A stretch of DNA of 64,000 nucleotides from Gemmobacter fulvus. GTDB taxonomy: Bacteria; Pseudomonadota; Alphaproteobacteria; Rhodobacterales; Rhodobacteraceae. The notes beneath the pieces were generated by a model. The model did no database searches and was not told where the DNA came from. It was given only the letters and a program-made list of their open reading frames with translations. Of the stretch, positions 26,959 to 47,210 are shown piece by piece (the first letter of the stretch is position 1; each line of letters opens with the position of its first letter). The position numbers were made by a program, and so were the translations under genes. The stretch covers positions 1 through 64,000 of the forward strand of contig NZ_CP076363.1 in the NCBI RefSeq assembly GCF_018798885.1, read 5' to 3'.

Positions 26959-27731
26959 GCGGCACCTGCCGGGGCAAAGGCGGTGATGGCAACGCCCGCC
27001 GCCATCAGCCGTTCGCGGATGCACCGCGCCATGGATACGGCATCGGGGCTGTCCCCATGCACGCAGATCGACTGTGCGGCCAAGGGCAGCACCGATCCGT
27101 CAACCGCCTCGATCACGCCTTCGGTGGCAAGCCGCAGCATCCGGGCCGCAATCTGATCGGGGTCATGCAGCACAGCCCCGGCCTCGCGCCGCGATACCAG
27201 CGTGCCCTGCGGCGTATAGGCCCGGTCGGCAAAGGCCTCGGCCACCGTCGCCAGCCCCGCCGCCTGAGCGCGCGCAAGGACCGGTGCGCCTGCCAGCCCC
27301 ATCAGCACCAGCGCCGGGTCCACCGCGCGGATCCCGGCGATCACCGCATCGGCCTGCCGCGCATCGCCCGCAATGGTGTTGTAAAGCGCGCCATGCGGTT
27401 TGACATAGGTGACGCGCGTGCCCGCTGCCTGCGCCAGCCCTTGCAACGCCCCGATCTGATAGATCACATCGGCAGTCAACTCGTCCGAGGTGACATCCAT
27501 CGGGCGGCGGCCAAAGCCGACACGATCCGGGTAGGACACATGGGCCCCCACCGCGACGCCACGGGCTGCGGCGGCGCGCAGCGTGGCCAGAATGGTCAGC
27601 GGATCCCCGGCGTGAAACCCGCAGGCGACATTGGCCGAACTGACCAAGGTCAGCATCGTGTCATCATCGCCCATCTTCCATGCGCCATAGCCTTCGCCAA
27701 GATCGCTGTTCAGATCAATCGTCGGGGTCAT
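26955..27731 (-). CDS. pxpA: 5-oxoprolinase subunit A (LamB/YcsF family)
   Basis: 258 residues with the diagnostic [42 protein letters not shown] and VKPHGALYN motifs. PxpA with PxpB and PxpC hydrolyses 5-oxoproline. It lies after the NRAMP-like gene with a 59-bp gap holding a hairpin, and overlaps the DUF1445 gene by 4 bp. Confidence 0.93.
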
Positions 27732-33276: not shown

Positions 33277-33297
33277 GGGGCTGTGCTGCGACGCTGC

Positions 33298-33310
33298 GAC
33301 CTTGGTCCAA
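33298..33310 (+). promoter_or_regulatory. PQQ-locus palindromic element (copy 1)
   Basis: GACCTTGGTCCAA, with a perfect GACC-TT-GGTC core at 33298-33307. It lies 40 bp before the NosR-like start and 22 bp before the TauC-like start. The 30 bp from 33298 share 24 identical positions with those from 44926, which precede the TauA-like gene. A CATAGCT -10-like box follows 25 bases after the core, which would place the element near -40. Confidence 0.6.
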
Positions 33311-33346
33311 TGGCAGGACAGGGCAGGCGGGGCATAGCTTGCCCCC

Positions 33347-35410
33347 ATGCGTCATATTCTGGTCCTTCTGTTCTGGCTGGTGCAAGCCCTTACCGTTTCG
33401 GCGGAGACTTTGACACGCGCCGAGATCGAGCCGTTCATCATCCCGCCCTATGCGCTTGGCGAGCCGGTGAATGACAAGGGCGTGTGGAGCCTGCGCAACT
33501 CGGGCGGTGCCGAGGCGGGTTATGTGTTTGAAACCGCGCCGATGGCGCCGCTGCCCGGCTTTTCCGGCGCCCCGATCAACATGCTGGTGATGCTGGATCT
33601 GGATGGCCGGTTTCTGGATGTGCGGCTGATCGCGCATAACGAACCGATCTTCGTGTCGGGCCTTGGGGAAGCGCCGTTCCGCAAGTTCATGGAACAGTAT
33701 CGCGGCCAATCAATCAACACTCCGATGGTGGTGGGCACGCCGTATGGCGATGGCGGGGCAGGCTCGGGTCTGGTGTATCTGGAAGGCGTGGCCAAGGCCA
33801 CCGCCTCGGTACGCATCGCCCATGAATCGATCCTTGCCGCCACGCTGCAAGTGGCGCGCGAGAAAATGCAGGGGATTCAAAGCGCGCCGCCCGCCCATCC
33901 CGACCCGGCACATGACGAGCCGCTGGACTGGCAGGCGCTGGTGGATCAGGGCATTGCCCGCAATCTGCGGGTAAGCAATGCCGAGTTGGATCAGGCCTTT
34001 GCGGGCACGGTCTGGGCCGATGACGACGCCGAGGCGCAGGCCGATCCTGACGGCGTGTATCTCGACCTCTGGCTGGTTGACATCGGCCCGCCCAGCATCG
34101 CCCGCGCCGTGCTCGATGACGAGGCCTTTGCCGATCTGCAACGGTTCATGGCGGTGTCCAGCTTTGATGAGCCGTTCCTGCTGATCGACGCCGGGCGGCA
34201 TGGTCTGGTGAGTGCCGATTTCGTGCGCAATACCGCGCCCGATCTGCTGGGGGCGGAACAGGACGGGCTGCCAATCGCCCTGCGCGATGCCGACATGATC
34301 TTTGGCACCCGCCCCGATGTGCCCGAAGGCACGGCGATGATCCTGCGCACCGACCGGCGGTTGGGGTTTGATCCGGCACGCGACTGGCTGTTGCAGGTGA
34401 AGGCGGTGCGCGAACATGGCATGTTCCAGCCCGAGGTCGGCTCTGCCACCTTCACACTGACCCATGCCACGCCGGAGCGCTTTTATGCCCGCGCCGGGGT
34501 GGTCGAGGTGTTGCCGCCATGGCGCGAGGCGATCCGCAACCGCCAGACCGATCTGATGGTTCTGGCCATCGCGCTGCCAGCCCTGCTGCTGTTGCTTGGC
34601 CCCGGCATGGACAGGCTGGCGGCGGCGCGACATTTCACGGCGATCAGGCTGGCCATCCTCGCCATTGTCACCGGATTTGTCGGCTGGTGGGGGCAGGGGC
34701 AATTGTCGATCGTGACCCCGCTGGCCGTTCTGCGCACGGCATGGGAGGGCGGTAGCTTCGCCTATCTGCTGTATGATCCGGTTTCGCTGCTGATCTGGGC
34801 CGCCACGATTCTGGGGTTTGTTCTGTGGGGGCGCGGATTGTTCTGCGGTTGGCTGTGCCCGTTCGGGGCCTTGCAGGAATTCGCGCATCATCTGGGACGG
34901 CTGCTGCGCCTGCCGCAATGGGATCCGCCGCCGCTGTGGGATGCCCGGCTGAAGGGGTTGAAATATCTGCTGCTGGCCGGGCTGGTGCTGACGGTGTTCG
35001 TCGCGCCGGATCAGGTGGATACGGTGGTGGAGGTGGAGCCGTTCAAGACTGCCATCACCACGTTTTTCCTGCGCGACTGGGTTTTTGTGGCCTATGCGGC
35101 GGGTTGGCTGCTGCTTGGCATGGTCACGTTCAAGGGGTTCTGCCGTTACGTCTGCCCCTTGGGTGCGCTGATGGCGATTGGCGGTCTGCTGCGCGGGCGC
35201 GACTGGATTGCCCGGCGGAAGGAATGTGGATCCCCCTGCCAGTTGTGCCGGGTCCGCTGCAAATACGGGGCGATCAAACCCTCGGGGCAGATCAGCTATT
35301 CCGAATGTTTCCAATGCCTTGATTGTGTGACCATCCATAATGACGCGGCGCAATGCGTGCCGTTGATCCTTGCCGCGAAAGGCCGCCCGATGCGTGCAGC
35401 AGCGAAATGA
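33347..35410 (+). CDS. NosR/NirI-family membrane flavo-iron-sulfur protein
   Basis: 687 residues: signal peptide (1-19), periplasmic FMN-binding-type domain (about 50-170), a long periplasmic region, then about five membrane spans from residue 400 on. Two CxxxCP motifs (FCGWLCPFGAL and FCRYVCPLGAL) and C-terminal cysteine clusters (CGSPCQLCRVRC, CFQCLDC) for two 4Fe-4S centres follow the NosR pattern. The flavinylation motif is degenerate (KATASV in place of SGATxT). The ApbE flavin transferase gene overlaps its stop. Such proteins move electrons across or along the membrane; here the partner is probably the PQQ/cytochrome system. The ATG lacks a visible Shine-Dalgarno and may be near the transcript start. 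Confidence 0.87.
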   Translation: MRHILVLLFWLVQALTVSAETLTRAEIEPFIIPPYALGEPVNDKGVWSLRNSGGAEAGYVFETAPMAPLPGFSGAPINMLVMLDLDGRFLDVRLIAHNEPIFVSGLGEAPFRKFMEQYRGQSINTPMVVGTPYGDGGAGSGLVYLEGVAKATASVRIAHESILAATLQVAREKMQGIQSAPPAHPDPAHDEPLDWQALVDQGIARNLRVSNAELDQAFAGTVWADDDAEAQADPDGVYLDLWLVDIGPPSIARAVLDDEAFADLQRFMAVSSFDEPFLLIDAGRHGLVSADFVRNTAPDLLGAEQDGLPIALRDADMIFGTRPDVPEGTAMILRTDRRLGFDPARDWLLQVKAVREHGMFQPEVGSATFTLTHATPERFYARAGVVEVLPPWREAIRNRQTDLMVLAIALPALLLLLGPGMDRLAAARHFTAIRLAILAIVTGFVGWWGQGQLSIVTPLAVLRTAWEGGSFAYLLYDPVSLLIWAATILGFVLWGRGLFCGWLCPFGALQEFAHHLGRLLRLPQWDPPPLWDARLKGLKYLLLAGLVLTVFVAPDQVDTVVEVEPFKTAITTFFLRDWVFVAYAAGWLLLGMVTFKGFCRYVCPLGALMAIGGLLRGRDWIARRKECGSPCQLCRVRCKYGAIKPSGQISYSECFQCLDCVTIHNDAAQCVPLILAAKGRPMRAAAK

Positions 35411-36276
35411 GGCGGCGGCGCTTTTTGCAGATCGTGGCGGCGAGTCTCGCCGTGCCCGGCACCGCGCGGGCCGAACTGGTCTGGCAAGGTGTCGCGCTTG
35501 GCGCGGATGCCGAACTGCGGTTAACGGGTGACAGACGCAGGGCCGAGGCGGCGCTGGCCGGTCTGCCCGCGCTGTTGGCACGCGTGGAGGCGTGGTGCAG
35601 CCTGTATCGCCCGTCAGAGCTGACCCGGCTGAATACCGAGGGGCGGGTGATCCCGTCGCCCGGTTTTGCGGATCTCGTCGCGATGGCCGATGATCTGCAC
35701 CGGCTGACCGATGGGCTGTTCGACCCCACGGTGCAGCCGCTGTGGCAGGCGCTGGCGACGGGCGGGGATGTGGCGGTTGCGCGGGCTGGGATCGGTTGGG
35801 GCCGTGTGCGGCTGGGTGCCGAGATCCGTCTGGACCCCGGTCAGGCGCTGACCTTCAACGGGCTGGCCCAGGGCCATGCGACGGATCTGGTGCGCGACCA
35901 TCTGGCGGCGCATGGTTTCACCTCGGCGCTGGTGAATATCGGGGAATATGCGGCACTTGGCGGGCCGTTCCGGCTGGGCATCGCCGATCCCGTGGCCGGG
36001 ATGCTGGCGGAAAGCGTGCTGACGCAGGGGGCGCTGGCCGTTTCGTCGCCGCAGGCGATGCAGATCGGCGGGCAGGGGCATATTCTGCATCCGCAGGGCC
36101 AGCCGCCGCGCTGGTCCACCGTTGCGGTCGAGGCAGACAGCGCTGCACTGGCCGATGGCCTGTCGACCGCGCTGGTCTTTGCCGACCGGGCGCAGATTGC
36201 TGCGCTGAAATCGCGCCTGCCCGCGCTGCGGCGGGTGACGCTGATCGACGGCGCGGGCGATTTGCAGCGGGTCTAG
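35407..36276 (+). CDS. apbE: FAD:protein FMN transferase
   Basis: 289 residues. N-terminal signal (RRRRFLQIVAASLAVPGTARA), then ApbE motifs: CSLYRPSELTRLNTEG, DGLFDPTVQPLW, FNGLAQGHATD and LVNIGEYAALGG. ApbE transfers FMN from FAD to a Thr/Ser of target proteins in the periplasm; the target is probably the NosR-like protein whose gene overlaps by 4 bp. Its stop faces the XoxJ-like gene 6 bp away. Confidence 0.9.
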   Translation: MRRRRFLQIVAASLAVPGTARAELVWQGVALGADAELRLTGDRRRAEAALAGLPALLARVEAWCSLYRPSELTRLNTEGRVIPSPGFADLVAMADDLHRLTDGLFDPTVQPLWQALATGGDVAVARAGIGWGRVRLGAEIRLDPGQALTFNGLAQGHATDLVRDHLAAHGFTSALVNIGEYAALGGPFRLGIADPVAGMLAESVLTQGALAVSSPQAMQIGGQGHILHPQGQPPRWSTVAVEADSAALADGLSTALVFADRAQIAALKSRLPALRRVTLIDGAGDLQRV

Positions 36277-36282
36277 CCGCGC

Positions 36283-37218
36283 CTATCGCTCTGGCGGCGT
36301 GAAGCTGAGGCCATAGCTGGCATAGGCCTGCGCCATTCGCCCATCGGCCAGCGCCGCCACCACGGCATCATCCAGCGCATAGGCCAGATCGCGGTGGCTG
36401 TGATGCACGGCGATGCCCACAGTCCAACTGCCAAGCGCAAACCCCGGCAGCGGCGGCTGATGCACCGCGACACCCGGCCCCGCGCCATGCTGCAACTGCG
36501 CGCGCGGCCCCATCGCGGCCATCACCTCGGCGGCGGCAAGCGCGGCCATGCCTTTTGCCATGCTGGGAAAGCGGCGGATGTTCGGGCCGATCTGCCCGCC
36601 CGGAAAGGCCGTCAGATAGAAATCGGCAATCGAATCGTTTTCCACCGCCACGGTATCAAACCGGAAAAACGCAGGCACCGGCGCGCCTTCGTGCCGGGCC
36701 TCGGCCGAGGGCACGGCATCGGGATAGGCTTCGGTCCGATAGGCGATGGCGATTTCTTCCTTCGCATATTGCCCGGTGAACACCACCTGTTCGACCAGAC
36801 AGGTGAACGCGCTGTTATAGGGCACGCGCAGCATCACATTCATCACCGGCTCTGCCAGAACCGTGCCGCGCCAGACATAGGACATCAGATCGGTCTGCAG
36901 ATTCTCGCCCGCCTGCACGAAGGTAAAGCGCGGCTCCACCCCCAGGCTTTCGGCCAGAATCCGGCCCAGTTCAATATCCACCCCTTTGGGCTGATCGCCG
37001 TCCAGCCAGCTGTAGGGGGGGAAATCCTCGTAGACCGCGATGGTCAGAAAGCCGCGTTCCACAATCTCGTCCAGCGTCTGACCGACATATTCCCGCGCGG
37101 TGTTCTGTGGGCGATGGCCCGGCACCACCCCTTCGCAGCGGGCAAGAACGGGTGCGGCGGCGAGGGTCAGAACCCCCGCCGCAAGCCCCGTGACAAGGGC
37201 GCGTCTGCGCATGATCAA
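36283..37218 (-). CDS. Quinoprotein dehydrogenase-associated periplasmic binding protein (MxaJ/XoxJ-like)
   Basis: 311 residues with a signal peptide and a family-3 solute-binding fold (GFLTIAVYEDFPPYSWLDGDQPKGVDIELGRILAESLG). MxaJ/XoxJ-type proteins accompany PQQ alcohol dehydrogenases and are thought to help maturation or cofactor loading. It overlaps the upstream cytochrome gene by 4 bp (ATGA). The ATG at 37212 is an alternative start. Confidence 0.85.
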   Translation of the reverse strand: MIMRRRALVTGLAAGVLTLAAAPVLARCEGVVPGHRPQNTAREYVGQTLDEIVERGFLTIAVYEDFPPYSWLDGDQPKGVDIELGRILAESLGVEPRFTFVQAGENLQTDLMSYVWRGTVLAEPVMNVMLRVPYNSAFTCLVEQVVFTGQYAKEEIAIAYRTEAYPDAVPSAEARHEGAPVPAFFRFDTVAVENDSIADFYLTAFPGGQIGPNIRRFPSMAKGMAALAAAEVMAAMGPRAQLQHGAGPGVAVHQPPLPGFALGSWTVGIAVHHSHRDLAYALDDAVVAALADGRMAQAYASYGLSFTPPER

Positions 37219-37895
37219 TGGGTCGCCGACAGCCCGATGGTCAGGGCGTCAACCGCATGTTTCGCGCCTTCCGGCGTGCCGTCCAGTGCCAGCGCCGCGC
37301 GGTTCGCCGCGCTGTCGGCAACGGGCGCACCCGAGGCGGTCTTGACCTCCAGCGCAATCGTGGTCAGCTCTGCCTTGAGCGCGGTCTGATCGCCGCTGCC
37401 ATCGGCCAGCGCATCATGGATGGCCGTCAGACGTGCGGTATGGGCATCCAGCGCGCCGTCCTCGGGCCGGGTTTCGATATAGGTGCGGATCGCCCATGCC
37501 GCCTTCTGGCCCAGCACATCGCCAAAGGCCGGCATCTTGGTGGTGCCATCCTGCGTATAACCATGGCGGAAGCGTTCGACATACCATTCGTCGCCATATT
37601 CCGCCGCTTCCAGAAAGCGCAGATCGGGGGCCAGCCCGCCCGACACCACGCCCAGGCCGTGGCAACGTGCGCAGTTCTGGTTATAGGCACTGTCGCCGAT
37701 GGTCACGGCGGTCCACCACACCTCGTCCCCGGCCTTTTCGGCCCGGTAGGGGTTTTCGATCAGCCATTCTTCCCCCACTTCGGGCAGGGCATCGGTGTTC
37801 ACCGGTTGCGGGGCCACATCGCCATGCGCATAGGCCATCGTCGCAAGCCCCGCGAGGGCCAATGTGGCGGCAAGGCCGCGGAAATGTTGTGTCAT
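37215..37895 (-). CDS. Cytochrome c-550, PedF-like
   Basis: 226-residue periplasmic protein. Signal peptide ends at AYAHGDV; one haem site NCARCHGLG (about residues 81-89) with a probable Met ligand in TKMPAFGD. The N-terminal HGDVAPQPVNTDALPEVGEEW stretch is that of PedF-type cytochromes found in PQQ-ethanol dehydrogenase loci, where they accept electrons from the quinoprotein. Start at 37895 (MTQHFRG); the ATG at 37916 adds seven residues. Divergent from the Lut-like operon. Confidence 0.88.
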   Translation of the reverse strand: MTQHFRGLAATLALAGLATMAYAHGDVAPQPVNTDALPEVGEEWLIENPYRAEKAGDEVWWTAVTIGDSAYNQNCARCHGLGVVSGGLAPDLRFLEAAEYGDEWYVERFRHGYTQDGTTKMPAFGDVLGQKAAWAIRTYIETRPEDGALDAHTARLTAIHDALADGSGDQTALKAELTTIALEVKTASGAPVADSAANRAALALDGTPEGAKHAVDALTIGLSATH

Positions 37896-37984
37896 GGCTC
37901 GTCCTCCCTTGAGCATGTTCCGGTGCTAACCGAAGCCGGGGGCGGCGCGGTATTGGACTTTCGTGCCAAAAGGGCAGGGGGTGC

Positions 37985-37997
37985 GACCAATGTCGTA
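37985..37997 (+). promoter_or_regulatory. PQQ-locus palindromic element (copy 2)
   Basis: GACCAATGTCGTA, one base from the ExaA-promoter copy GACCAAGGTCGTA. It lies in the 151-bp divergent spacer, 49 bp before the LutA-like start and 89 bp before the PedF-like start. Confidence 0.6.
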
Positions 37998-38046
37998 TTC
38001 CCCGCCCGCCCCCCATGGTCAATCCTGCCGGAAGGGAGACGAATTC

Positions 38047-39234
38047 ATGCGACACAACTCTTTTTTCCGCGCCTGTGCGGCGGCGGCCACGGCATTTTTT
38101 GCTGTTCCGGCGGCAGGGCAGGGCACAGCGCTGGAGGTGCCGATCCTCTATCTGCGGCAAGAGGTGGATCTGCCGCCAGTCCTGTCGAATCTTGATCCGG
38201 TGCCCGAGGATCTGGGGCTGGCCGGGGCCGAAGTCGCCCTGAAGGACAATCAGACCACCGGCGGCTTTCTGGGGCATGACTACCGGCTGGAGGTGGTGTC
38301 GGTCGCCCCGGGGGAGGATCTGGCGTCCGCGGCGCGCATGGCGCTGGCCGGGGCGGGCTTCGTGCTGGTCGAAGGCTCTGCCGCCGATGTGCTCACCGTG
38401 GCCGATCTGCCCGAAGCGCAGGGCAAGCTGCTGTTCAACGTGGCCTCTGGTGACGCGGCGTTGCGGTCGGATCAGTGCCGCGCCAATCTGCTGCACACCC
38501 TGCCCGAAGACGCCGCGCGCACCGATGCGCTGATGCAGGTGTTGCAGGCCAAGCAGTGGCGCAATCTGGCGCTGATCGTCGGCCCCAAGCCCGGCGATGC
38601 CGCCTTTGCCGAGGCGCTGCGCACATCGGCGCGCAAATTCGGCCTGACCATCTTCGGTGAAAAGACCTGGAGCTTTGACACCGATCTGCGCCGCGCCGCC
38701 ACCGCCGAATTGCCGCCCTTCACGCAGGATCTGCCTGACCATGACGTGCTGCTGCTGGCCGATGAATCCGATGATTTCGGTCGATATGTAGAGCATAACA
38801 CCTGGCTGCCGCGCCCGATTGCCGGGTCGGAAGGGCTGGAGGGGTTCGGCTGGACCCCGGTGTTGGAACAATGGGGGGCGGTGCAATTGCAGAACCGCTT
38901 CCGCGACCACGCGGAACGCGGGATGCAAAGCCGCGATTACGCCGCCTGGTCGGCCATCCGCGCGGTTGGCGAGGCCGTCACCCGCACCGGCAGCGCCGAT
39001 CCGGCCGCGCTGCGCGCCTATATGCTGTCCGATACGTTCCAACTGGATGGCTTCAAGGGTCGCGCGCTGACCTTCCGCCACTGGAACGGCCAGATGCGCC
39101 AGCCGATTGCCGTGGCCAATGGCCGGGCGCTGGTCACACTCGCCCCGGTCGAGGGGTTTTTGCACCAACGCAATGAAACAGACAGCCTCGGGATGGACGA
39201 ACCCGAGAGCACATGCACCGCCTTCGGAGGATAA
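38047..39234 (+). CDS. Periplasmic binding protein of PQQ-alcohol-dehydrogenase-linked ABC system (LutA/PedA-like)
   Basis: 395 residues: signal peptide (1-25, FFAVPAAGQG), then a type-1 binding-protein fold like branched-chain amino-acid receptors (VVSVAPGEDLASAARMALAGAGFVLVEG, PLRSDQC-like ALRSDQCRANLLHTLPEDAARTDALMQ). This class is annotated as the binding component of a PQQ-dependent alcohol dehydrogenase ABC system and corresponds by position to LutA of the Methylobacterium lanthanide-uptake cluster. GGGAG lies about 9 bases before the ATG. The assignment to lanthanide rather than another ligand is inference. Confidence 0.83.
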   Translation: MRHNSFFRACAAAATAFFAVPAAGQGTALEVPILYLRQEVDLPPVLSNLDPVPEDLGLAGAEVALKDNQTTGGFLGHDYRLEVVSVAPGEDLASAARMALAGAGFVLVEGSAADVLTVADLPEAQGKLLFNVASGDAALRSDQCRANLLHTLPEDAARTDALMQVLQAKQWRNLALIVGPKPGDAAFAEALRTSARKFGLTIFGEKTWSFDTDLRRAATAELPPFTQDLPDHDVLLLADESDDFGRYVEHNTWLPRPIAGSEGLEGFGWTPVLEQWGAVQLQNRFRDHAERGMQSRDYAAWSAIRAVGEAVTRTGSADPAALRAYMLSDTFQLDGFKGRALTFRHWNGQMRQPIAVANGRALVTLAPVEGFLHQRNETDSLGMDEPESTCTAFGG

Positions 39235-39235
39235 C

Positions 39236-40201
39236 ATGACCCGCACCCTTGCCGTCCTGCTGCTGAGTGTCGCCCTGCCGGTTCAGGCCGGTGAAATCTG
39301 GGTCACCAATGAAAAGGACGATACGGTCAGCGTGATCGACGTGGATACGCTGGAGGTGACGCGCACCTATGAAACCGGCGAACGCCCGCGCGGCATCACC
39401 TTTTCCAAGGATTTCAGCCGCGTTTATATCTGCGCCTCGGACAGCGACACCGTGCAGGTGATGGATCCCGCCACGGGCGAGATTCTGCACGAACTGCCCT
39501 CGGGCGAGGACCCCGAACAATTCGTTCTGGCCCCCGATGACCGCCATCTCTACATCGCCAACGAAGATGACGCAGTGACGACCGTGGTGGATACCGAAAC
39601 CCGCAGCGTTGTCGCGCAGATCAATGTGGGGATCGAACCCGAAGGCATGGCCGTCTCGCCCGATGGCAAGATTGCCATCACCACATCGGAAACGACCAAT
39701 ATGGCGCATTGGATCGACACGGCGACGCAATCGCTGTTTGCCAATACGCTGGTGGACAGCCGCCCGCGCCATGCCGAATTCACCGCCGACGGGGCGCAGC
39801 TCTGGGTCAGCTCGGAAATCGGCGGCACCATCACCGTGTTCACCACCGCCGATCAGGCCGAGGTGGGCAAGGTGCGGTTTGAAATCACCGGGGTCAGTGC
39901 CGATCTGGTGCAGCCGGTCGGCTTCAAGTTCAGCCCGGATGGCAAGAAGGTCTTTGTCGCGCTTGGCCCGGCCAATCATGTGGCCGTGGTCGATGCCACC
40001 ACCCTTGCGGTCGAAAAATACATCCTTGTCGGGCGGCGTGTCTGGCACATGGCGTTTTCGCCCGACAATTCCAAACTGTTCACCACCAACGGCGTTTCGG
40101 GGGATGTGACAGTGATCGACGTGGCATCGGAAGAGGCCGTGAAATCCATCAAGGTCGGCCGCTTCCCCTGGGGTGCGGCCATGCGCCCGACCAAGGGCTG
40201 A
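39236..40201 (+). CDS. Secreted seven-bladed YVTN beta-propeller protein
   Basis: 321 residues with signal peptide (ending PVQAGEI) and seven repeats of the YVTN type, e.g. WVTNEKDDTVSVIDVDT, YICASDSDTVQVMDPAT, YIANEDDAVTTVVDTET, WVSSEIGGTITVFTTAD, FVALGPANHVAVVDATT, FTTNGVSGDVTVIDVAS. These occur in PQQ and Lut/Ped clusters, where a propeller protein has been connected with lanthanide binding. Acidic loops are plentiful. GGAGG sits 6-7 bases before the ATG. It follows the binding-protein gene directly. Confidence 0.87.
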   Translation: MTRTLAVLLLSVALPVQAGEIWVTNEKDDTVSVIDVDTLEVTRTYETGERPRGITFSKDFSRVYICASDSDTVQVMDPATGEILHELPSGEDPEQFVLAPDDRHLYIANEDDAVTTVVDTETRSVVAQINVGIEPEGMAVSPDGKIAITTSETTNMAHWIDTATQSLFANTLVDSRPRHAEFTADGAQLWVSSEIGGTITVFTTADQAEVGKVRFEITGVSADLVQPVGFKFSPDGKKVFVALGPANHVAVVDATTLAVEKYILVGRRVWHMAFSPDNSKLFTTNGVSGDVTVIDVASEEAVKSIKVGRFPWGAAMRPTKG

Positions 40202-40216
40202 AGAAAGGACATCTCA

Positions 40217-40648
40217 ATGACCCGCTTTGCACTGACTGCCATCACCCTTGCCACCGCGCTGATCCTGCCGCTTGCCGTTACCGCACAGACGGCGGGGCTG
40301 TTGTCGCGCGAAAACCGGGTGGAGCTGCCGCCGCTGACACTTGCGTCGGGCTCTGCCGTTTCGGCTGCGCCGCTGGTGCTGAAATCCGGCACCTATTACA
40401 TTCTGCAAATCGAATCCGATGGCAGTGCCGAGCTGGCGCTGGAAGGATCGGGCTTTTTCCGCGCGGTCTGGGTGAATGAAATCGTGATCAACGATATCGA
40501 GATCCGGCCGCTGGGCATCGACTCGCTGGAATTCGATGACGAGGGCAAGGCCGAAATCTCCTTCATCGCCATCAAGCCGGGCAGTTATGAACTGCGCGTG
40601 CCCGGCTCCAGCGGTGACAGCCAGCGCGTGGGAATCACCATCGAGTGA
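40217..40648 (+). CDS. Small secreted protein of the Lut/Ped-like cluster, function unknown
   Basis: 143 residues with a clear signal peptide (1-23, ending VTAQ). The mature part is beta-rich by eye and acidic toward the middle (VINDIEIRPLGIDSLEFDDEGK), ending with a cupredoxin-like AIKPGSYELRVPG. I do not recognise a named family; proteins of this size sit between the propeller and ATPase genes in related loci. Its stop overlaps the GTG start of the ATPase gene (GTGA). Role in ligand hand-over is possible but unproven. Confidence 0.75.
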   Translation: MTRFALTAITLATALILPLAVTAQTAGLLSRENRVELPPLTLASGSAVSAAPLVLKSGTYYILQIESDGSAELALEGSGFFRAVWVNEIVINDIEIRPLGIDSLEFDDEGKAEISFIAIKPGSYELRVPGSSGDSQRVGITIE

Positions 40649-41400
40649 CCCCGCAACCCGGCCTCTGCCTGCGTGATGTCAGCTTCCGCTATGGCAGCCG
40701 ACAGGCGCTGCGCGCGGTGTCGGTAACGGTGGAACCGGGGCAGTTCTGTGCCCTGCTGGGGCCGAACGGGGCGGGAAAATCCACGCTGTTCGGCCTGATG
40801 ACCGGGCTGTTCACCACGCGGGAGGGCAGCATTTGCGTGGCGGGCCATGATCTGGCCCGCAACCCGCGCGCCGCCCTTGCGCAGATCGGCGTGGTGTTTC
40901 AGCAACCCACCCTTGACCTTGATCTGACGGTGCGGCGCAACCTGCTGTATTTCGCGGCCTTGCACGGCCTGTCGGGCCGCGAGGCCGAGCGCCGTGCTGC
41001 GGCAGCGCTGGAGCGCCTTGGCATGGCCGAACGCGCGGCGGAACTGGTGCGCAGCCTCAATGGCGGGCACCGCCGCCGCATGGAGATTGCCCGCGCCCTG
41101 ATCCACCGCCCAAGCGTGCTGCTGCTGGATGAACCCACGGTCGGGCTGGATGCCGCCGCCCGCATGGCGATCACCGATCATGTGCATGATCTGGCGGCCG
41201 AGGGGCTGAGCATCCTCTGGGCCACCCATCTGACGGATGAGGTGCGCGACGGCGACAGCCTTGCCATCCTGCATCAGGGCCGCATCCTGTGCCATGGCCC
41301 TGCGGCACACCTGCGCGGAGCGGAGCCGCTGCGCGATCTGTTCCTGCGCCTGACCGCGCCGGGCGACAGCGCAGGCCAGACGGACGGAGGCAACACATGA
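40645..41400 (+). CDS. ABC transporter ATP-binding protein of the PQQ-linked system (LutE-like)
   Basis: 251 residues: Walker A GPNGAGKS (about 37-44), Q-loop VVFQQPTLD, signature LNGGHRRRMEIAR in place of LSGGQ, Walker B VLLLDEPTVGLD, switch His in WATHLTDEV. The LNGGH variant is how I recall this sub-family. Starts with GTG overlapping the previous stop. It pairs with the ABC-2-type permease encoded next (ATGA overlap). Confidence 0.87.
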   Translation: MTPQPGLCLRDVSFRYGSRQALRAVSVTVEPGQFCALLGPNGAGKSTLFGLMTGLFTTREGSICVAGHDLARNPRAALAQIGVVFQQPTLDLDLTVRRNLLYFAALHGLSGREAERRAAAALERLGMAERAAELVRSLNGGHRRRMEIARALIHRPSVLLLDEPTVGLDAAARMAITDHVHDLAAEGLSILWATHLTDEVRDGDSLAILHQGRILCHGPAAHLRGAEPLRDLFLRLTAPGDSAGQTDGGNT

Positions 41401-42185
41401 CCTGGCTGGTGGCCCTGCGCGCCATCCTGCACCGCGAGGCGCTGCGCTTTGTCAGCCAGCGCGGGCGCTTCGTCGCGGCGCTGGTCCGCCCGCTGGTCTG
41501 GCTGTTCGTCTTTGCCGCAGGGTTCCGGGCCGCGCTTGGCCTGTCGATCACCCCGCCGTATCAGACCTATATCACCTATGAGATCTATATCGTGCCCGGC
41601 CTGTGCGGCATGATCCTGCTGTTCAACGGCATGCAAAGCGCACTCAGCCTGGTCTATGACCGCGAAATGGGCTCGATGCGGCTGCTGCTGACCGCGCCCT
41701 TGCCGCGCTGGTGGCTGCTGTTCGCCAAGCTTCTGGCGGGAACGCTGGTCTCCTTGCTGCAATGCGCGGCGTTTCTGGCCATCGCCGCGGTCTGGGGCAT
41801 CACCCTGCCCTGGCAGGGCTATCTGCTGGCCATTCCGGCCTGCCTGATCGCCGGGCTGATGCTGGGCGCGCTGGGGCTGATGCTGTCCTCCGTCATCCGC
41901 CAGCTGGAGAATTTCGCCGGTGTGATGAATTTCGTGATCTTCCCGATGTTTTTCCTGTCTTCCGCGCTTTATCCGCTGTGGAAGATGGCCGAGGCCAGCC
42001 CGCGTCTGCGCGATCTGTGCCTGCTGAACCCCTTCACCCACGCCGTCGAGCTGATCCGCTTCGCGCTGTATAGCCAGATCAGCCTTCCTGCCCTTGGCTG
42101 GACGCTGCTGGCGCTGCTGATCTTCGCCGGGGCGGCGCTCTGGGGTTATGATCCGGCGCGCGGGATGCAAAGCCGCAAGGGCTGA
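41397..42185 (+). CDS. ABC-2-type membrane permease of the PQQ-linked system (LutF-like)
   Basis: 262 residues with six membrane spans and the ABC-2 signature region (GSMRLLLTAPLPRWWLLFAKLLAGTLVSLLQ). ABC-2 permeases are usually exporters, but the Lut and Ped systems with this subunit type are required for lanthanide-dependent growth. It is the last gene of the plus-strand operon, followed after 166 bp by the convergent quinoprotein gene. Confidence 0.87.
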   Translation: MTWLVALRAILHREALRFVSQRGRFVAALVRPLVWLFVFAAGFRAALGLSITPPYQTYITYEIYIVPGLCGMILLFNGMQSALSLVYDREMGSMRLLLTAPLPRWWLLFAKLLAGTLVSLLQCAAFLAIAAVWGITLPWQGYLLAIPACLIAGLMLGALGLMLSSVIRQLENFAGVMNFVIFPMFFLSSALYPLWKMAEASPRLRDLCLLNPFTHAVELIRFALYSQISLPALGWTLLALLIFAGAALWGYDPARGMQSRKG

Positions 42186-42293
42186 CGGCGGGGCCTACCT
42201 CGGGCGGCGGGTCTGGCCGGGCCGTGGCAAGGTGAGTATTTGGGCAAAATGCAAGTCAGAAGGGCGCGCAGGGGGCGGCCAGCCTGAACGCAA

Positions 42294-42320
42294 AACGCGC
42301 CACCCTTTCGGATGGCGCGC
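42294..42320 (-). terminator. Terminator of the quinoprotein gene
   Basis: CGCGCCA (42296-42302) and TGGCGCG (42313-42319) form the stem. On the minus strand the hairpin is followed by GTTTTG, a short T-run. It lies 32 bp after the quinoprotein stop and can also stop the convergent permease transcript. Confidence 0.65.
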
Positions 42321-42351
42321 TCTTGCAGGCGGGGTATCTGACCGGAGGGGG

Positions 42352-44118
42352 TCAGTTCGCCATGGCAAGTTGTTTGGGCAGTTTGAAGGTCCAGACGGTG
42401 CCGCCCTGATTGAGGTAGTTCACCTTCTTGGCCACTTCGCCGCCCCACAGCGGCACGGCGCCACCCCAGCCCGAGATCACCGAGACATATTGTTCGCCTT
42501 CGGATTCCCAGGTGACCGGCTGGCCGACGATGCCCGAACCGGTCTGGAAGCTCCACAGCACCTCGCCGGTTTCATCGTTGAGCGCGAGGAACTCGCCTTC
42601 CGGCGTGCCGAAGAACACCAGACCGCCTGCCGTGGTCATCACGCCACCCCAGAGCGGGGCTTCGTTCTTGTATTCCCACTTCCATTCGCCGGTGACCGGA
42701 TCAATGGCCTTGAGCGAACCGATATGGTCTTCGTAATTCGGCTTGATGGTGAAGCCCGAGCCCAGATAGGCGGCGCCCTTCTTGTAGGTCACCGGCTCGT
42801 TCCAGATGTCCATGCCCCATTCGTTCGACGGCACATAGAACAGCCCGGTGTTCTGGCTATAGGCCATGGGCATCCAGTTCTTGCCGCCAAGGAAGGACGG
42901 CGACGAGAACACCATTTCGCCCTTGGCGCCATCGGCGGCCTTGGACGGATCGCCGGGGCGGTTGTCTTCGTTGTAGATCGGGCGACCGGTCTCGTCGATG
43001 CCCGAGGCCCAGGTGATGTCTTTCACGAAGGGATGGGCCGAGACGAATTTGCCATCCTCGCGGTTCAGCACATAGAAAAAGCCGTTCCGGTCGGCGGTGC
43101 CGAAGCGTTTGTTGCCATCCTTGTCGGTGAAGGACACAACCTCGTTCACACCGTCATAATCCCAGCCTTCGCGCGGCGTGGTCTGGAAGTGCCACTTGAT
43201 CTCGCCAGTGGCCGGGTCCAGCCCGATGCGCGAGGCGGCATAGAGGTTGTCGCCCACATTGCCTTCGGTCGGCGTGCCTGCATTGCGCAGATGGCTGTTC
43301 CACGGCGCGGGGTTGCCGGCCCCGAAGATCAGCGTGTTGGTTTCGATGTCATAGGAGCCGCCGAGCCAGGTCGCGCCGCCACCGGATTTCCACATATCGC
43401 CCGGCCAGGTCGCGTTCAGCGTCCCGGTCATGGTGCTTTCCTTGCCGTTCAGCGTGCCCATATGGCCTTCGATCACCGGGCGGGTCCAGACGGTTTCGCC
43501 GGTCAGCGCATCACGGGCCTGCACTTCGCCGACAATGCCGAATTCGCCGCCGGAATTGCCGGTGATCACCAGCCCGTTCACGATCAGCGGCGCTGCGGTA
43601 TAGCTGTAGCCTTCCTTGTAATCGGCGATCTTCTTGTTCCAGACCACATCGCCGGTCTTGGCGTTCAGCGCCACGATCCGGGCATCCAGCGTGCCGAAAT
43701 AGATATTGTCGCCATAGATGGCCGCGCCCCGGTTGATCACGTCGCAGCAGGGCAGAATGCCTTCGGGCAGGCGGGCATCATATTGCCACAGCTCCTTGCC
43801 GGTTTTCAGATCCACCGCATAAAGCCGCGAATACGAGCCGGTGATATACATCACCCCGTCATGCACGATCGGCTGGCTTTCCTGGCCGCGCTGCTTTTCG
43901 CCGCCAAGGCTGAAGGCCCAGGCCGGAAGCAGGTTTTTCACATTGTCGCGGTTCAGGGTGGTCAGCGGGCTGAACCGTTGCAGGTCGCGGCCCATGCCAT
44001 TGGTCAGCACGTCACCTGTCGATGCGGCGTCATTGGCGAGATCTTCCTCCGTCACGCCAGCCATCGCCGGCGATGCGGCGATGAATGCGGCCGTGACGGC
44101 CACGATAAAGCGGTTCAT
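42352..44118 (-). CDS. exaA: PQQ-dependent alcohol dehydrogenase, ExaA/PedH type, predicted lanthanide-dependent
   Basis: 588 residues: signal peptide (1-20, SPAMAG), then an eight-bladed quinoprotein propeller. The vicinal disulfide pair Cys124-Cys125 ([11 protein letters not shown]) over PQQ and the catalytic Asp320 are present. Two residues on is Asp322 (GWDYDGVNE); in Ca-dependent ExaA/PedE this is Ser and in Ca-dependent MxaF it is Ala, while XoxF and PedH carry Asp there to bind a lanthanide. The [14 protein letters not shown]-like APWNS and [10 protein letters not shown] stretches are ExaA-type rather than methanol-dehydrogenase-type. It would oxidise ethanol or other short alcohols in the periplasm and reduce a cytochrome c. 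GGGAGG precedes the ATG; the longer reading to 44184 adds a non-signal leader. Confidence 0.93.
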
Positions 44119-44227
44119 CTGTTTCCTCCCTTGGATGTCCCTTTTGAAGACCCCAGCGACGCGCGCCCTCCAGCGGGAAGCCATGGCCCTGCCGCATCAT
44201 CGGGCGGGACGCGGCCTTGCAACATTG

Positions 44228-44273
44228 CACCATGGTCGTAAAACGTCGCTGTCAGGCCCGGACCAAGGTCGTA
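44228..44273 (+). promoter_or_regulatory. PQQ-locus palindromic elements (copies 3 and 4) upstream of the quinoprotein
   Basis: CACCATGGTCGTA (44228-44240) and GACCAAGGTCGTA (44261-44273) share ACC-N-N-GGTCGTA and lie 33 bp apart, 110 and 143 bp before the quinoprotein ATG on the opposite reading strand. The second has the perfect GACC-AA-GGTC core. They are likely sites for the regulator of the alcohol-oxidation genes. Confidence 0.6.
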
Positions 44274-44358
44274 GTGACAGCATCTGCCGAGGGCAGCGGC
44301 CCGGCTGCGGCGCGCGGAATCACCGCGACGGGGGCCGGGGTGGGGCGGTTTGGCGGAA

Positions 44359-44382
44359 CGCGGCGCACCCTCCTGCGCCGCG
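44359..44382 (-). terminator. Candidate terminator after the cytochrome c gene
   Basis: CGCGGCGCA (44359-44367) and TGCGCCGCG (44374-44382) form a perfect 9-bp stem with a 6-base loop, 15 bp past the cytochrome stop. Only GTT follows on the minus strand, so it may be an attenuator between the two genes. Confidence 0.5.
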
Positions 44383-44397
44383 CCCGCCCTGTGCAGA

Positions 44398-44802
44398 TCA
44401 GTTGCCGCCCTGAACCGAGCGCAGATAGGCCAGGATGAACTCTTCCACCACAGGATCGGTGATGCCCACATGGCGCATCTTGGTGCCCGGCACGAAGCCC
44501 TGATTGTCGGCCATCCAGGCCTTCAGCGCAGGTTCCGTCCAGACGAAACCCGCCGTTTGCAGCGCCGGGGAATAGGGGTAATCCGCCACCGATCCGGCGC
44601 GACGCCCGATCACCCCTTCCAGTTTCGGGCCATAACTTTCATGCGTGGCATCCGTGGCATGGCAGCGGCGACATTCGGCATCAAAGAGCTTTGCCCCCGC
44701 CTCGATTTTGATTGTATCAAAGGCCGAAGTATCGGCCAGCGCGGCGGGTGCGCCGAGTGGCAGCGCAAGGCAAAGCGGGACAAGCAGGTATCGGAGGGTC
44801 AT
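44398..44802 (-). CDS. Small periplasmic cytochrome c
   Basis: 134 residues: signal peptide (ending AALADTS), one haem motif CRRCH (about residues 43-47) and a distal Met in GTKMRHVGI. The class-I c-type fold with a C-terminal helix (VVEEFILAYLRSVQ) resembles cytochrome c-550/c2 electron acceptors of PQQ alcohol dehydrogenases. GGAG lies 7 bases before the ATG at 44802; the ATG at 44814 is an alternative. It lies directly upstream of the quinoprotein gene, so it is probably its redox partner. Confidence 0.88.
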   Translation of the reverse strand: MTLRYLLVPLCLALPLGAPAALADTSAFDTIKIEAGAKLFDAECRRCHATDATHESYGPKLEGVIGRRAGSVADYPYSPALQTAGFVWTEPALKAWMADNQGFVPGTKMRHVGITDPVVEEFILAYLRSVQGGN

Positions 44803-44892
44803 ATCCGTCTCCATTCGAGTGTGGCGCGGTTCCGGGTGCAGCTTCGGCGCTGGGGCGGTGGCGGGCCTTGATGCAGGTCAACAGCGCCCCCC

Positions 44893-44938
44893 TGCTTTGG
44901 TCGTAGGGCGGCGCGCGCGGTTCGCGTCTTTGGTCGAA
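44893..44938 (+). promoter_or_regulatory. PQQ-locus elements (copies 5 and 6) between cytochrome c and TauA-like genes
   Basis: TGCTTTGGTCGTA (44893-44905) and GTCTTTGGTCGAA (44926-44938) keep the TTGGTC(G)-A half of the element and are 33 bp apart, the same spacing as the quinoprotein pair. They lie in a 186-bp divergent spacer. A GATATGCT -10-like box follows the second copy at the same 25-base distance as at 33298. Confidence 0.55.
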
Positions 44939-44988
44939 TGGTCGGACGGGGCAGGGCTGATATGCTTGCGCCCATGCAGGAGGGGCAG

Positions 44989-45966
44989 ATGATGGGGTTC
45001 TGGGGACGTCTTTTGAGCATGGCTGCGGCTGTGTTCGTAACGGCCGCGCCGCTGCGCGCCGACGAGGCCGTGCTGCGCATCGCCACGCAGATCAGTGGCA
45101 CGGTGAACTGGGAACTGGCGACGATCACCGCACAGGGGCTGGACCGGGCGAATGGTTTCACGCTTCAGGTGCAGGATGTGGCGGCAGGTCCGGCGGCGCA
45201 GATTGCCTTTCAGGCGGGGGCGGCGGATGTGATCGTGTCGGACTGGCTCTGGGTGGCGCGGCAGCGGGCTGAGGGCGAAGATTACGTCTTTATCCCTTAT
45301 TCGCGCGCGGTCGGTGCGCTGCATCTGCCCGAAAGCAGCACGGTGAAAACCCTTGCCGATCTGAAGGGCGGCAAGATCGGTGTGGCGGGCGGGCCGGTCG
45401 ACAAAAGCTGGCTGATCCTGCGGGCCTATGCGCAACAGGAATATGGGTTCGATCTGGCCGCAGAAACCGAACAGGTGTTTGGCGCGCCGCCGCTGATCTT
45501 TGAAACGGCGTTGGGGGGCGAGCTGGATGGCGCGGTCAACTTCTGGCATTTCGGGGCCAAGATGGAAGCCGCCGGAATGCGCCCGCTGATCACCGTGGCC
45601 GAGGCGGCGGGTACGCTCGGGCTGGATCCCGAAACGCCCTTGCTGGGTTATGTGATGCGCGGCGAGTTGCTGCGCGAAAAGCCGGAACTGGCGGTGGGGC
45701 TGGCGCGGGCCAGCCGGGCGGCCAAGGACGTTCTGGCGCAGGACGATGCGGCGTGGGAGGCGCTGCGCCCGCTGATGAACGCCAAGTCAGAGGCGCAGTT
45801 TGTCGCGCTCAAGGCCGGGTTCCGCGCCGGGATTCCCGCGCCCGGCCCGGTGGACGAGGCCGCCGCCGACCGGATGCTGGCGCTGATGGCGCGGCTGGGC
45901 GGCAGCGAGCTGGTCGGGGAGATGACCGCGCTGCCCGATGGCGTTTTCGTGCAGCCGGAAAGCTGA
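44989..45966 (+). CDS. TauA/SsuA-type periplasmic substrate-binding protein
   Basis: 325 residues: signal peptide (MAAAVFVTAAPLRADEA), then the type-2 binding fold of the nitrate/taurine class (LRIATQISGTVNWELATITAQGLDRANGFTLQV, GAADVIVSDWLWVARQRAEG, TVKTLADLKGGKIGVAGGPVDKSW). AGGAGG lies 5 bases before the ATG at 44989. The ATPase gene follows with a one-base overlap; the permease expected with this pair is not adjacent but a TauC-type one lies at 32494-33276. Ligand unknown; the context suggests something linked to alcohol oxidation or cofactor supply. Confidence 0.86.
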   Translation: MMGFWGRLLSMAAAVFVTAAPLRADEAVLRIATQISGTVNWELATITAQGLDRANGFTLQVQDVAAGPAAQIAFQAGAADVIVSDWLWVARQRAEGEDYVFIPYSRAVGALHLPESSTVKTLADLKGGKIGVAGGPVDKSWLILRAYAQQEYGFDLAAETEQVFGAPPLIFETALGGELDGAVNFWHFGAKMEAAGMRPLITVAEAAGTLGLDPETPLLGYVMRGELLREKPELAVGLARASRAAKDVLAQDDAAWEALRPLMNAKSEAQFVALKAGFRAGIPAPGPVDEAAADRMLALMARLGGSELVGEMTALPDGVFVQPES

Positions 45967-46628
45967 TGACCGCCGCCGTTTGCCTGCGGTTGGAACAGGC
46001 GCATCACGGGGCATCGCAGGTGCTTGGTCCGATGGCACTGGACGTGGCACCGGGTGAAACCCTGGCGCTGACCGGGCCGTCGGGCGTGGGCAAGACCACG
46101 CTGCTGCGCGTGATCGCCGGGCTGCACCGGCGCTGGCAGGGCAGCCTGGTGCTGCCGGGCCGGGTGGCGATGGTGTTTCAGGAGCCGGTGCTGATGCCGT
46201 GGCGCAGCGCCCTGCACAACATCACGCTGACCACCGGGTGCAGCGATGCAGCGGCGCTGAAAGCGCTGTCGGCGGTGGATCTGGCCGACAAGGCGCAGGC
46301 CTATCCGGGGGCCCTGTCCTTGGGGCAGCAGCGGCGGCTGTCGCTGGCGCGGGCCTTTGCGGCAGAGCCGGAGGTGCTGTTGATGGACGAACCCTTTGTC
46401 TCGCTGGATCCGGCGCTGGCCGATGAGATGATGATCCTGTTCGAGACGTTGCGCGCGGCCCGACCGCTGGCGACCATTCTGGTCAGCCATGCCCCCGCCG
46501 AGGTCGCACGGCTGGCAGATCGCAGCCTGCGGCTGGAGGGTGCCCCGGCGCGGATCGTGGCGACCGATCAGAACAGTGGCGCGTATTTCCAGTTGTCGGC
46601 GTCGGGCGTCACCTCGTCGAGGTCATAA
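45966..46628 (+). CDS. ABC transporter ATP-binding protein, TauB/SsuB type
   Basis: 220 residues: Walker A GPSGVGKT (about 39-46), Q-loop MVFQEPVLMPWRS (typical of the TauB/SsuB class), signature LSLGQQRRLSLAR, Walker B VLLMDEPFVSLD and switch His in VSHAPAEV. The start shares one base with the binding-protein stop (TGATG). Its last 61 bp overlap the convergent Sel1 gene tail to tail. Confidence 0.87.
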   Translation: MTAAVCLRLEQAHHGASQVLGPMALDVAPGETLALTGPSGVGKTTLLRVIAGLHRRWQGSLVLPGRVAMVFQEPVLMPWRSALHNITLTTGCSDAAALKALSAVDLADKAQAYPGALSLGQQRRLSLARAFAAEPEVLLMDEPFVSLDPALADEMMILFETLRAARPLATILVSHAPAEVARLADRSLRLEGAPARIVATDQNSGAYFQLSASGVTSSRS

Positions 46629-47116
46629 CCCGAGGCTTGCAACCGCCGCGCCACCGGTAGGCCCAGATCGGCGGCCTGATCGACCAGTGCCCGGCCCGCC
46701 GCCTCGTCCTGCCGCACGCCGCGCCCGCGCATCATGTCCAGCCCGTAATTATACATGCCGACAGGATCGCCCAGTTCGGCGGCCTGCCTGTCCCAATCGG
46801 CGGCGGCATCGGGATCCATCGGCGCGCCATGGCCATTGTCGTCCAGCTGCGACATCCATGTCATCGCCCCGGTATAGCCATCGGCGGCGCAATTCCTGAA
46901 CAGGCGGCGGGCCTCTTCGTGGCGACCGGATTTTGTCATCAGATAGCCCGAGGCACAGGTGGTCATCGAGGTCTTGCCCTGTTCGGCATCGCGCAACACC
47001 CGGTTCAGGCTCATCTCATCGGGGTTCAGGGTGCCTTCCGGCTCTGCCTCGGCAAAGGCGGGAAGCGCGGTCAGCACAAGGCAACCAAGGGCGGATGTCA
47101 GATGGCGGATCATCAC
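46568..47116 (-). CDS. Secreted Sel1-repeat protein
   Basis: 182 residues with a signal peptide (ending PAFAEAE) and about two to three Sel1/TPR-like repeats (AMTWMSQLDDNGHGAPMDPDAAADWDRQAAELGDPVGMYNYGLDMMRGRGV is the clearest pair). Two Cys residues in the mature part could form a disulfide. Sel1 proteins act as assembly scaffolds. It is preceded by two copies of the locus element, which ties it to the PQQ genes. GAGGAG lies 7 bases before the ATG. Function not known. Confidence 0.8.
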   Translation of the reverse strand: MMIRHLTSALGCLVLTALPAFAEAEPEGTLNPDEMSLNRVLRDAEQGKTSMTTCASGYLMTKSGRHEEARRLFRNCAADGYTGAMTWMSQLDDNGHGAPMDPDAAADWDRQAAELGDPVGMYNYGLDMMRGRGVRQDEAAGRALVDQAADLGLPVARRLQASGYDLDEVTPDADNWKYAPLF

Positions 47117-47185
47117 TCAACTCCTCTGCGCATTACGCGCCTCTGCACACAGAGTGTAGCGGCGATCCCTGATGCCGCAATGCGA

Positions 47186-47210
47186 CCTTGGTGTTTACGA
47201 CCCCAAGCCA
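47186..47210 (-). promoter_or_regulatory. PQQ-locus elements (copy 7 and partial copy) before the Sel1 gene
   Basis: On the minus strand CACCAAGGTCGCA (47198-47186 read 5'-3') differs by two bases from GACCAAGGTCGTA, and just upstream of it lies TTGGGGTCGTA. Both are 70-95 bp before the Sel1 start. This marks the right border of the putative regulon. Confidence 0.5.

Follow-up and report, generated by a model that had tools for sequence, protein, structure and literature searches.

The first 64,000 nucleotides of contig NZ_CP076363.1 of Gemmobacter fulvus (assembly GCF_018798885.1; this whole stretch is called the window) contain a pyrroloquinoline quinone (PQQ)-dependent alcohol oxidation locus in which a short palindrome, GACC-WW-GGTC, recurs in front of one gene after another. 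Do these copies form the control site of a single regulon and, if so, which protein reads it? We find that the palindrome is genuine, a control site that evolution has conserved before XoxF-type alcohol oxidation genes. It probably serves as operator for an FlhR/AfdR-like response regulator of the LuxR/NarL type, which would be controlled by phosphorylation and would govern a XoxF regulon by class II activation.

The palindrome in the window and upstream of xoxF

Direct reading and a pattern search place exact GACCWWGGTC cores at 33298 and 44261, one-mismatch cores at 37985, 44228 and 47184 (given as 47186 in the initial annotation) and a two-mismatch core at 44926. The seventh site named there, 44893, is merely a half-site, GGTCGTA, and is absent from the list of cores at two mismatches. 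The agreement noted between the 30 bp from 33298 and those from 44926 is exactly 24/30. The box is an imperfect palindrome, frequently with one strong half. A third exact core, at 27642, lies within another open reading frame (ORF).

The element was followed into 80 loci that encode a close XoxF relative, mostly from named Rhodobacterales records, whose upstream regions were aligned; the nearest by XoxF belong to Gemmobacter and a Cypionkella metagenome-assembled genome. A conserved element, TACGACCAWTGKNCAAT, lies ∼ 95–145 bp upstream of the xoxF start codon, and the 16-mer TACGACCWWTGKNCAA is present without mismatch in 45 of 81 rows (the 80 loci plus the window) and with one mismatch in 22. 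From 42 unique xoxF-upstream sites we built a 17-position weight matrix (PWM), for which a codirectional score of at least 8 was the usual cut-off. A matching 17-mer stands 95–145 bp before the xoxF start in 79/79 usable loci of the 80, a count that holds by construction because those sites trained the matrix.

In the window, xoxF (42352..44118, minus strand) encodes a member of the PQQ-dependent methanol/ethanol dehydrogenase family (TIGR03075, 774.9 bits; 91% identity to Gemmobacter homologs), which we take to be linked to lanthanides in this strain. Its primary box (44224..44240, minus strand; TACGACCATGGTGCAAT; PWM 28.3) is the only match without mismatch to the footprint pattern in the genome, and a secondary box (44257..44273, minus strand; PWM 7.5) lies 33 bp, about three helical turns, further upstream. 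Two pairs with this spacing had been described. The pair at 44228/44261 does consist of two sites before the single gene xoxF, but that at 44893/44926 serves two divergent genes, and with a loose half-site pattern the spacings in 10 relatives with two matches are 33, 34, 28, 33, 30, 30, 60, 44, 44 and 43 bp. Because the spacing varies among relatives, 33 bp is not fixed in the cytochrome/TauA intergenic region, and a fixed pair there is ruled out. The secondary box of the window is one of 14 direct copies upstream of xoxF boxes, which tend to lie near multiples of ∼ 11 bp, 10 of them no more than 1 bp away from one (Rayleigh p ∼ 0.002, 0.015 and 0.004 at periods 10, 10.5 and 11; weak values, from related sequences and uncorrected for multiple testing). 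An inverted half-site directly upstream of the box in 16/79 xoxF loci (L012, L015, L017, L018 and 12 others) creates a GGTCG-TACGACC-like sequence, which suggests a third half-site at these promoters.

Could the copies reflect chance resemblance among GC-rich promoter sequences? The core with up to two mismatches has 126 matches in the window against 70.9 expected, a 1.8-fold excess, and these are scattered through coding DNA; core counts alone say little. A pattern scan of the genome (4.68 Mb) points the same way at low stringency. The extended palindrome TACGACCWWGGTCGTA (TACGACC-WW-GGTCGTA) with up to three mismatches occurs at 26 sites, four of them in this 14-kb locus, and its total is not enriched since the reversed control gives 43; the footprint pattern TACGACCWWNGNNCAAT with up to two mismatches has 24 matches against 44 for its reversed control. 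Only the best matches are therefore specific: the genome's sole 0- and 1-mismatch matches to TACGACCWWNGNNCAAT are the xoxF and NosR-like promoters, and its single two-mismatch match to TACGACCWWGGTCGTA is at 37982. Shuffling argues against chance at the locus itself. Between 32001 and 48000, TACGACCWWGGTCGTA with up to three mismatches is found four times, compared with 0.03 times on average and once at most in 100 dinucleotide shuffles, and the three sites in the locus with PWM scores of at least 16 were equalled by 0/400 shuffles. Chance is also contradicted by conservation at orthologous promoters relative to internal-gene controls, given below. A chance origin is rejected by the shuffles of both extended palindrome and PWM, and we regard it as scarcely credible; the recurrence of the palindrome at the promoters of the locus, as first proposed, is real.

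Conservation at other promoters and sites elsewhere in the genome

Sites are kept upstream of orthologs of most promoter genes of the locus. A codirectional site above the cut-off precedes 51/68 orthologs of the ATP-binding cassette (ABC) substrate-binding gene abcS (TIGR03863), 49/66 of PedF, 34/43 of the cytochrome c gene and 9/15 of the NosR-like gene; the PedF and ABC counts overlap because this divergent pair shares one intergenic region. Sel1-like orthologs have a site in 17/64 cases, TauA-like orthologs in merely 3/39 and TauC-like orthologs in 0/11. Operon-internal genes rarely reach the same score (xoxJ 0/66, beta-propeller 0/70, abcP 0/48, x143 3/49, abcA 3/53 and apbE 1/23; pooled 7/309), and neither do random segments (3.9%). 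The gene list of the initial annotation needs correction on this account: TauC-like genes have no such site, and the TauA-like and Sel1 sites are weak. A de novo motif search from random starts in sequences upstream of the cytochrome, NosR, Sel1 and TauA genes, with xoxF and abcS excluded, returned ATACGACCATGGTCGTAT when symmetry was imposed and TACGACCAAAGTAG when it was not, whereas control sets gave other motifs.

The individual boxes differ in strength. The NosR-like box (33295..33311, plus strand; TGCGACCTTGGTCCAAT; PWM 20.6), the sole one-mismatch match in the genome, precedes a membrane iron-sulfur protein gene (33347..35410, plus strand; Fer4_5), for which we keep the name NosR-like from the initial annotation. 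The ABC box (37982..37998, plus strand; TGCGACCAATGTCGTAT; PWM 16.6) precedes the substrate-binding protein gene of the PQQ alcohol dehydrogenase system (38047..39234, plus strand; TIGR03863 above cut-off) and here has no good −10 at offset 39. Facing the other way is a weak PedF box (37952..37968, minus strand; TGGCACGAAAGTCCAAT; PWM 6.2), which was missing from the original list; its GAAAGTCCAAT is also found in the related loci L005 and L010, and its target is cytochrome c-550 PedF (37215..37895, minus strand, in the ORF 37215–37916; TIGR04494 above cut-off). Upstream of the cytochrome c gene (44398..44802, minus strand; Cytochrom_C), the half-site box (44889..44905, minus strand) reads TACGACCAAAGCAGGGG and has a PWM score of 0.1, and the weak box (44923..44939, plus strand; CGCGTCTTTGGTCGAAT) of a likely target encoding a TauA/SsuA-like binding protein (44989..45966, plus strand; weak TIGR01728, below cut-off) scores 0.4. 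Both half-sites thus score poorly yet are conserved letter by letter in the nearest relatives: TACGACCAAAG of the cytochrome site is present in L005–L010, TTTGGTCGAAT of the TauA-like site in L005, L006, L008 and L010, and TTTGGTCGGAT in L009. The weak Sel1-like box (47180..47196, minus strand; AAACACCAAGGTCGCAT; PWM 4.0) precedes a possible target, a Sel1-repeat-like protein gene (46568..47113, minus strand; Sel1 below gathering score).

Outside the window, the five top-ranked of the 24 matches to TACGACCWWNGNNCAAT by PWM are completed by C1:1781319, C2:360185 and C1:69185, after xoxF and the NosR-like promoter. Sixteen of the other 19 fall inside crudely predicted ORFs; the predictor also puts 69/270 sites with PWM scores of at least 12 in ORF interiors, including some known xoxF sites, and places the NosR-like site within an over-long TauC ORF. 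Position C2:360185 belongs to a second PQQ alcohol dehydrogenase cluster, which encodes PQQ_CXXCW and SoxH-related proteins and has two matrix matches (18.8 and 11.5). No box immediately precedes the start of the second PQQ enzyme on C2 (best score 3.2); the match lies ∼ 2.6 kb upstream of the enzyme, before a PedF-like gene named by eye. The cluster as a whole (L181, C2:352000–371000) further encodes pentapeptide proteins, as well as a kinase/regulator pair of its own. The site at C1:69185 lies between the kinase gene flhS and a CoxG protein gene, which is followed by three subunits resembling glyceraldehyde and CO dehydrogenases, below equivalog cut-offs. Both the second PQQ cluster and the operon beside the candidate regulator thus have high-scoring intergenic matches. 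Two side observations concern further promoters: the match at C1:1781319 (L121; 19.9; AACGACCATTTTTCAAT) lies 77 bp before a gene, and in two relatives, L061 and L037 (two of four homologs), a box (21.5 and 12.5) lies ∼ 90 bp before a gene that by eye resembles aldehyde dehydrogenase genes.

Promoter geometry and the candidate regulator

How would such a site act? The best −10-like hexamer was searched freely over 16 offsets from the site start, and it falls at offset 39–40 in 70/79 xoxF, 42/51 abcS, 9/10 NosR-like and 10/16 Sel1 sites. The fixed distance between element and −10-like box that had been claimed is thus found at most promoters, and the palindrome therefore abuts the −35 region there. 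The usual position of class II activators is near −41.5, and NarL-type proteins recognize palindromes of 7-2-7 form; the position predicted for the box is as for a class II activator. At xoxF the predicted −10 element is GATGAT (44196..44201, minus strand), 39 bp from the box start, with an offset of 38–40 in 76/79 relatives. The predicted NosR-like −10 is ATAGCT (33334..33339, plus strand). It ends 7 bp before the ATG (33334–33349), so the NosR-like mRNA may lack a leader; L005 and L010 have a similar distance from site to ATG.

The best candidate for the protein that reads the box is encoded on a different contig (C1:65126–65804) and combines a receiver with a LuxR-type helix-turn-helix (Response_reg and GerE, both over cut-off). 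The genes from C1:65126 to 69175 are, in order, the regulator, a FIST-domain protein and a hybrid kinase with PAS, HisKA, HATPase and receiver domains; the name FlhR rests on domains, gene order and linkage. In 56/80 loci an FlhR homolog (56–74% identity) lies 141–1455 bp downstream of xoxF on the same strand, 54 of the 56 within 506 bp. A site scoring at least 8 precedes coxG in 16/30 related loci and flhR itself in 33/56.

A survey of 61 family genomes extends this linkage. XoxF more than 80% identical to ours occurs in 11 of them, all of which carry an FlhR homolog of at least 60% identity, and 10 of the 11 have a PWM score of at least 8 upstream of xoxF. Exact pattern matches number 9 across the survey compared with 3 for the reversed control. 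Seven of the nine are in FlhR-positive genomes (22/61 at E ≤ 1e-40), before xoxF (4), an ABC gene (2) and a PqqB-like gene named by eye (1); the other two, in FlhR-negative genomes, lie inside crudely predicted ORFs. Where FlhR occurs without a close XoxF, in G051, G034, G026 and G010, the sole site with a PWM score of at least 12 (15.7–26.0) in 17–18 kb precedes a CoxG-type gene and adjoins flhR or lies within ∼ 4 kb of it. In a search of 120 genomes of the phylum, 41 had a match to the FlhR homolog.

The conserved box could nevertheless be bound by another regulator, such as the response regulator L095 at the second PQQ cluster, those at L085 or L087, or a member of another family. A profile search finds 13 GerE-domain matches in this genome, and the second PQQ cluster has both a histidine kinase and regulator pair and the PWM matches of 18.8 and 11.5. 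However, when seven response regulators of this genome were searched, close matches adjoining xoxF were found for the FlhR homolog alone. A relative's xoxF-linked regulator is 73% identical to the candidate FlhR and merely 32% to the next own protein, and FlhR is also found near the CoxG-type sites. We therefore consider another regulator unlikely and favour FlhR.

Several observations weigh against a single FlhR regulon. The 80 loci are closely related, so their counts are not independent events, and the genome-wide counts at two or three mismatches are below their reversed controls. Scores are low at the window sites of the TauA-like, cytochrome c, PedF and Sel1 genes, and relatives lack the −10 spacing peak at their cytochrome c sites (7/34). 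Neither pqqB nor the two adhI genes (adhI/flhA being a known FlhR/AfdR target) have a box within ∼ 1.5 kb in this genome; pqqB homologs have a site scoring at least 8 in 1/12 cases codirectionally and 5/12 in either orientation, and no adhI homologs are present in the 80 loci. Among the surveyed genomes, one with a close XoxF scored just 4.6 and seven have FlhR of at least 60% identity without a close XoxF. Three of these, G037, G043 and G002, have no CoxG-type site in the 17–18 kb stretch; G043 has a site of 16.3 ∼ 100 bp upstream of flhR itself, and G037 and G002 have no site near flhR. The internal gene flhS also reaches a score of 8 in 6/55 cases, probably from conserved coding sequence, and response regulator L095 could act at the second PQQ cluster. 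On the other side are ortholog conservation, rarity before internal genes, the −10 distance and the sites at the second PQQ cluster and the regulator-side operon; together these comparisons support the proposal of one activator defining a regulon. What the sequences show is a site that is conserved and set at promoters, and a linkage between the regulator gene and those of the regulon; FlhR binding, phosphorylation and the direction of control are inferred.

Related systems and the proposed regulon

Is such an operator known elsewhere? CrbR (ErdR) of Gammaproteobacteria, Pseudomonas among them, recognizes the ACTU motif. This imperfect inverted repeat, which reads TACTACCATCGTCGAAT and spans −52 to −36 at P. 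fluorescens acs, immediately precedes an RpoD promoter and is required for activation by this LuxR-type response regulator (PMC5715377). Its half-sites are similar to those of the Rhodobacterales box and it occupies the same position directly upstream of −35. The systems differ in that CrbR controls acetate genes (acs, actP) and has a kinase with an SLC5 transporter domain, whereas here the genes are for alcohol oxidation and the partners are a PAS hybrid kinase and a FIST-domain protein. Seven ACTU sequences, part of the published table (PMC5715377), score 1.9–21.6 on the Rhodobacterales matrix (acs 17.8, the actP operon gene PFLU1813 4.3 and pflu5625 9.0), with at most 1/2000 shuffles as good for each. 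A search of the open-licence literature for the term 'ACTU motif' found only work on CrbR.

The arrangement of regulator, ORF and kinase genes is shared with FlhRS of Paracoccus denitrificans and AfdRS/RfdRS of Rhodobacter sphaeroides, which also act in one-carbon metabolism (PMC4776306, PMC8879981); flhR, orf2, flhS and afdR, afdT, afdS are described as gene groups (PMC4776306). Their named targets comprise adhI/flhA and fghA, and also mxa and mau in combination with further regulators, whereas adhI is boxless here, and the sections of these reports available to us give neither a binding motif nor control of xoxF (PMC4776306, PMC8879981). RfdRS is believed to repress adhI in R. sphaeroides (PMC4776306), and the box could by that precedent be a repressor operator. 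The site abuts rather than overlaps the −35/−10 region, like the activating ACTU motif, and we judge repression very improbable; activation by FlhR remains our preferred reading. A comparable case is AgmR/PedR1 and the Pseudomonas ped cluster, where a LuxR-type protein activates PQQ alcohol dehydrogenase genes clustered with ABC and beta-propeller genes; the kinases differ, and the part of the description available holds no operator sequence (PMC12997753). In the portions of the open-licence literature covered, we found neither an operator nor a regulator of xoxF described for Rhodobacterales.

We propose that a dimer of the regulator encoded on the other contig, as flhR, FIST-domain protein and hybrid PAS histidine kinase, would bind TACGACC-WW-GGTCGWAT immediately before the −35 region, where it would activate as a class II factor; with a transcription start ∼ 7 bp past the −10 element, the site centre would be at ∼ −44. 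The xoxF promoter may take a second dimer, bound upstream of the first by one or more helical turns. By analogy with the related systems, the signal would presumably be formaldehyde or methanol. The regulon would comprise XoxF, its cytochromes, the ABC system, the NosR-like protein and the molybdenum aldehyde-dehydrogenase-like operon, and probably the second PQQ alcohol dehydrogenase cluster. Since such a regulon couples XoxF with the aldehyde-dehydrogenase-like operon, alcohol oxidation and aldehyde disposal would be switched on together. More tentatively, a single FlhR-type box may mark an alcohol-to-aldehyde regulon across Rhodobacterales whose operator code is common with CrbR acetate switching. 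If CrbR uses the same code, one ancestral operator might have been reused for successive steps from alcohol to aldehyde to acetate, an idea that we hold with some doubt.

A defined box and a candidate regulator make the control of xoxF in Rhodobacterales directly testable, and the box would serve as a genome-readable marker of the regulon. It would also tie poorly understood genes, the NosR-like, the Sel1-like and those of the CoxG-type aldehyde-dehydrogenase-like operon, to alcohol oxidation.

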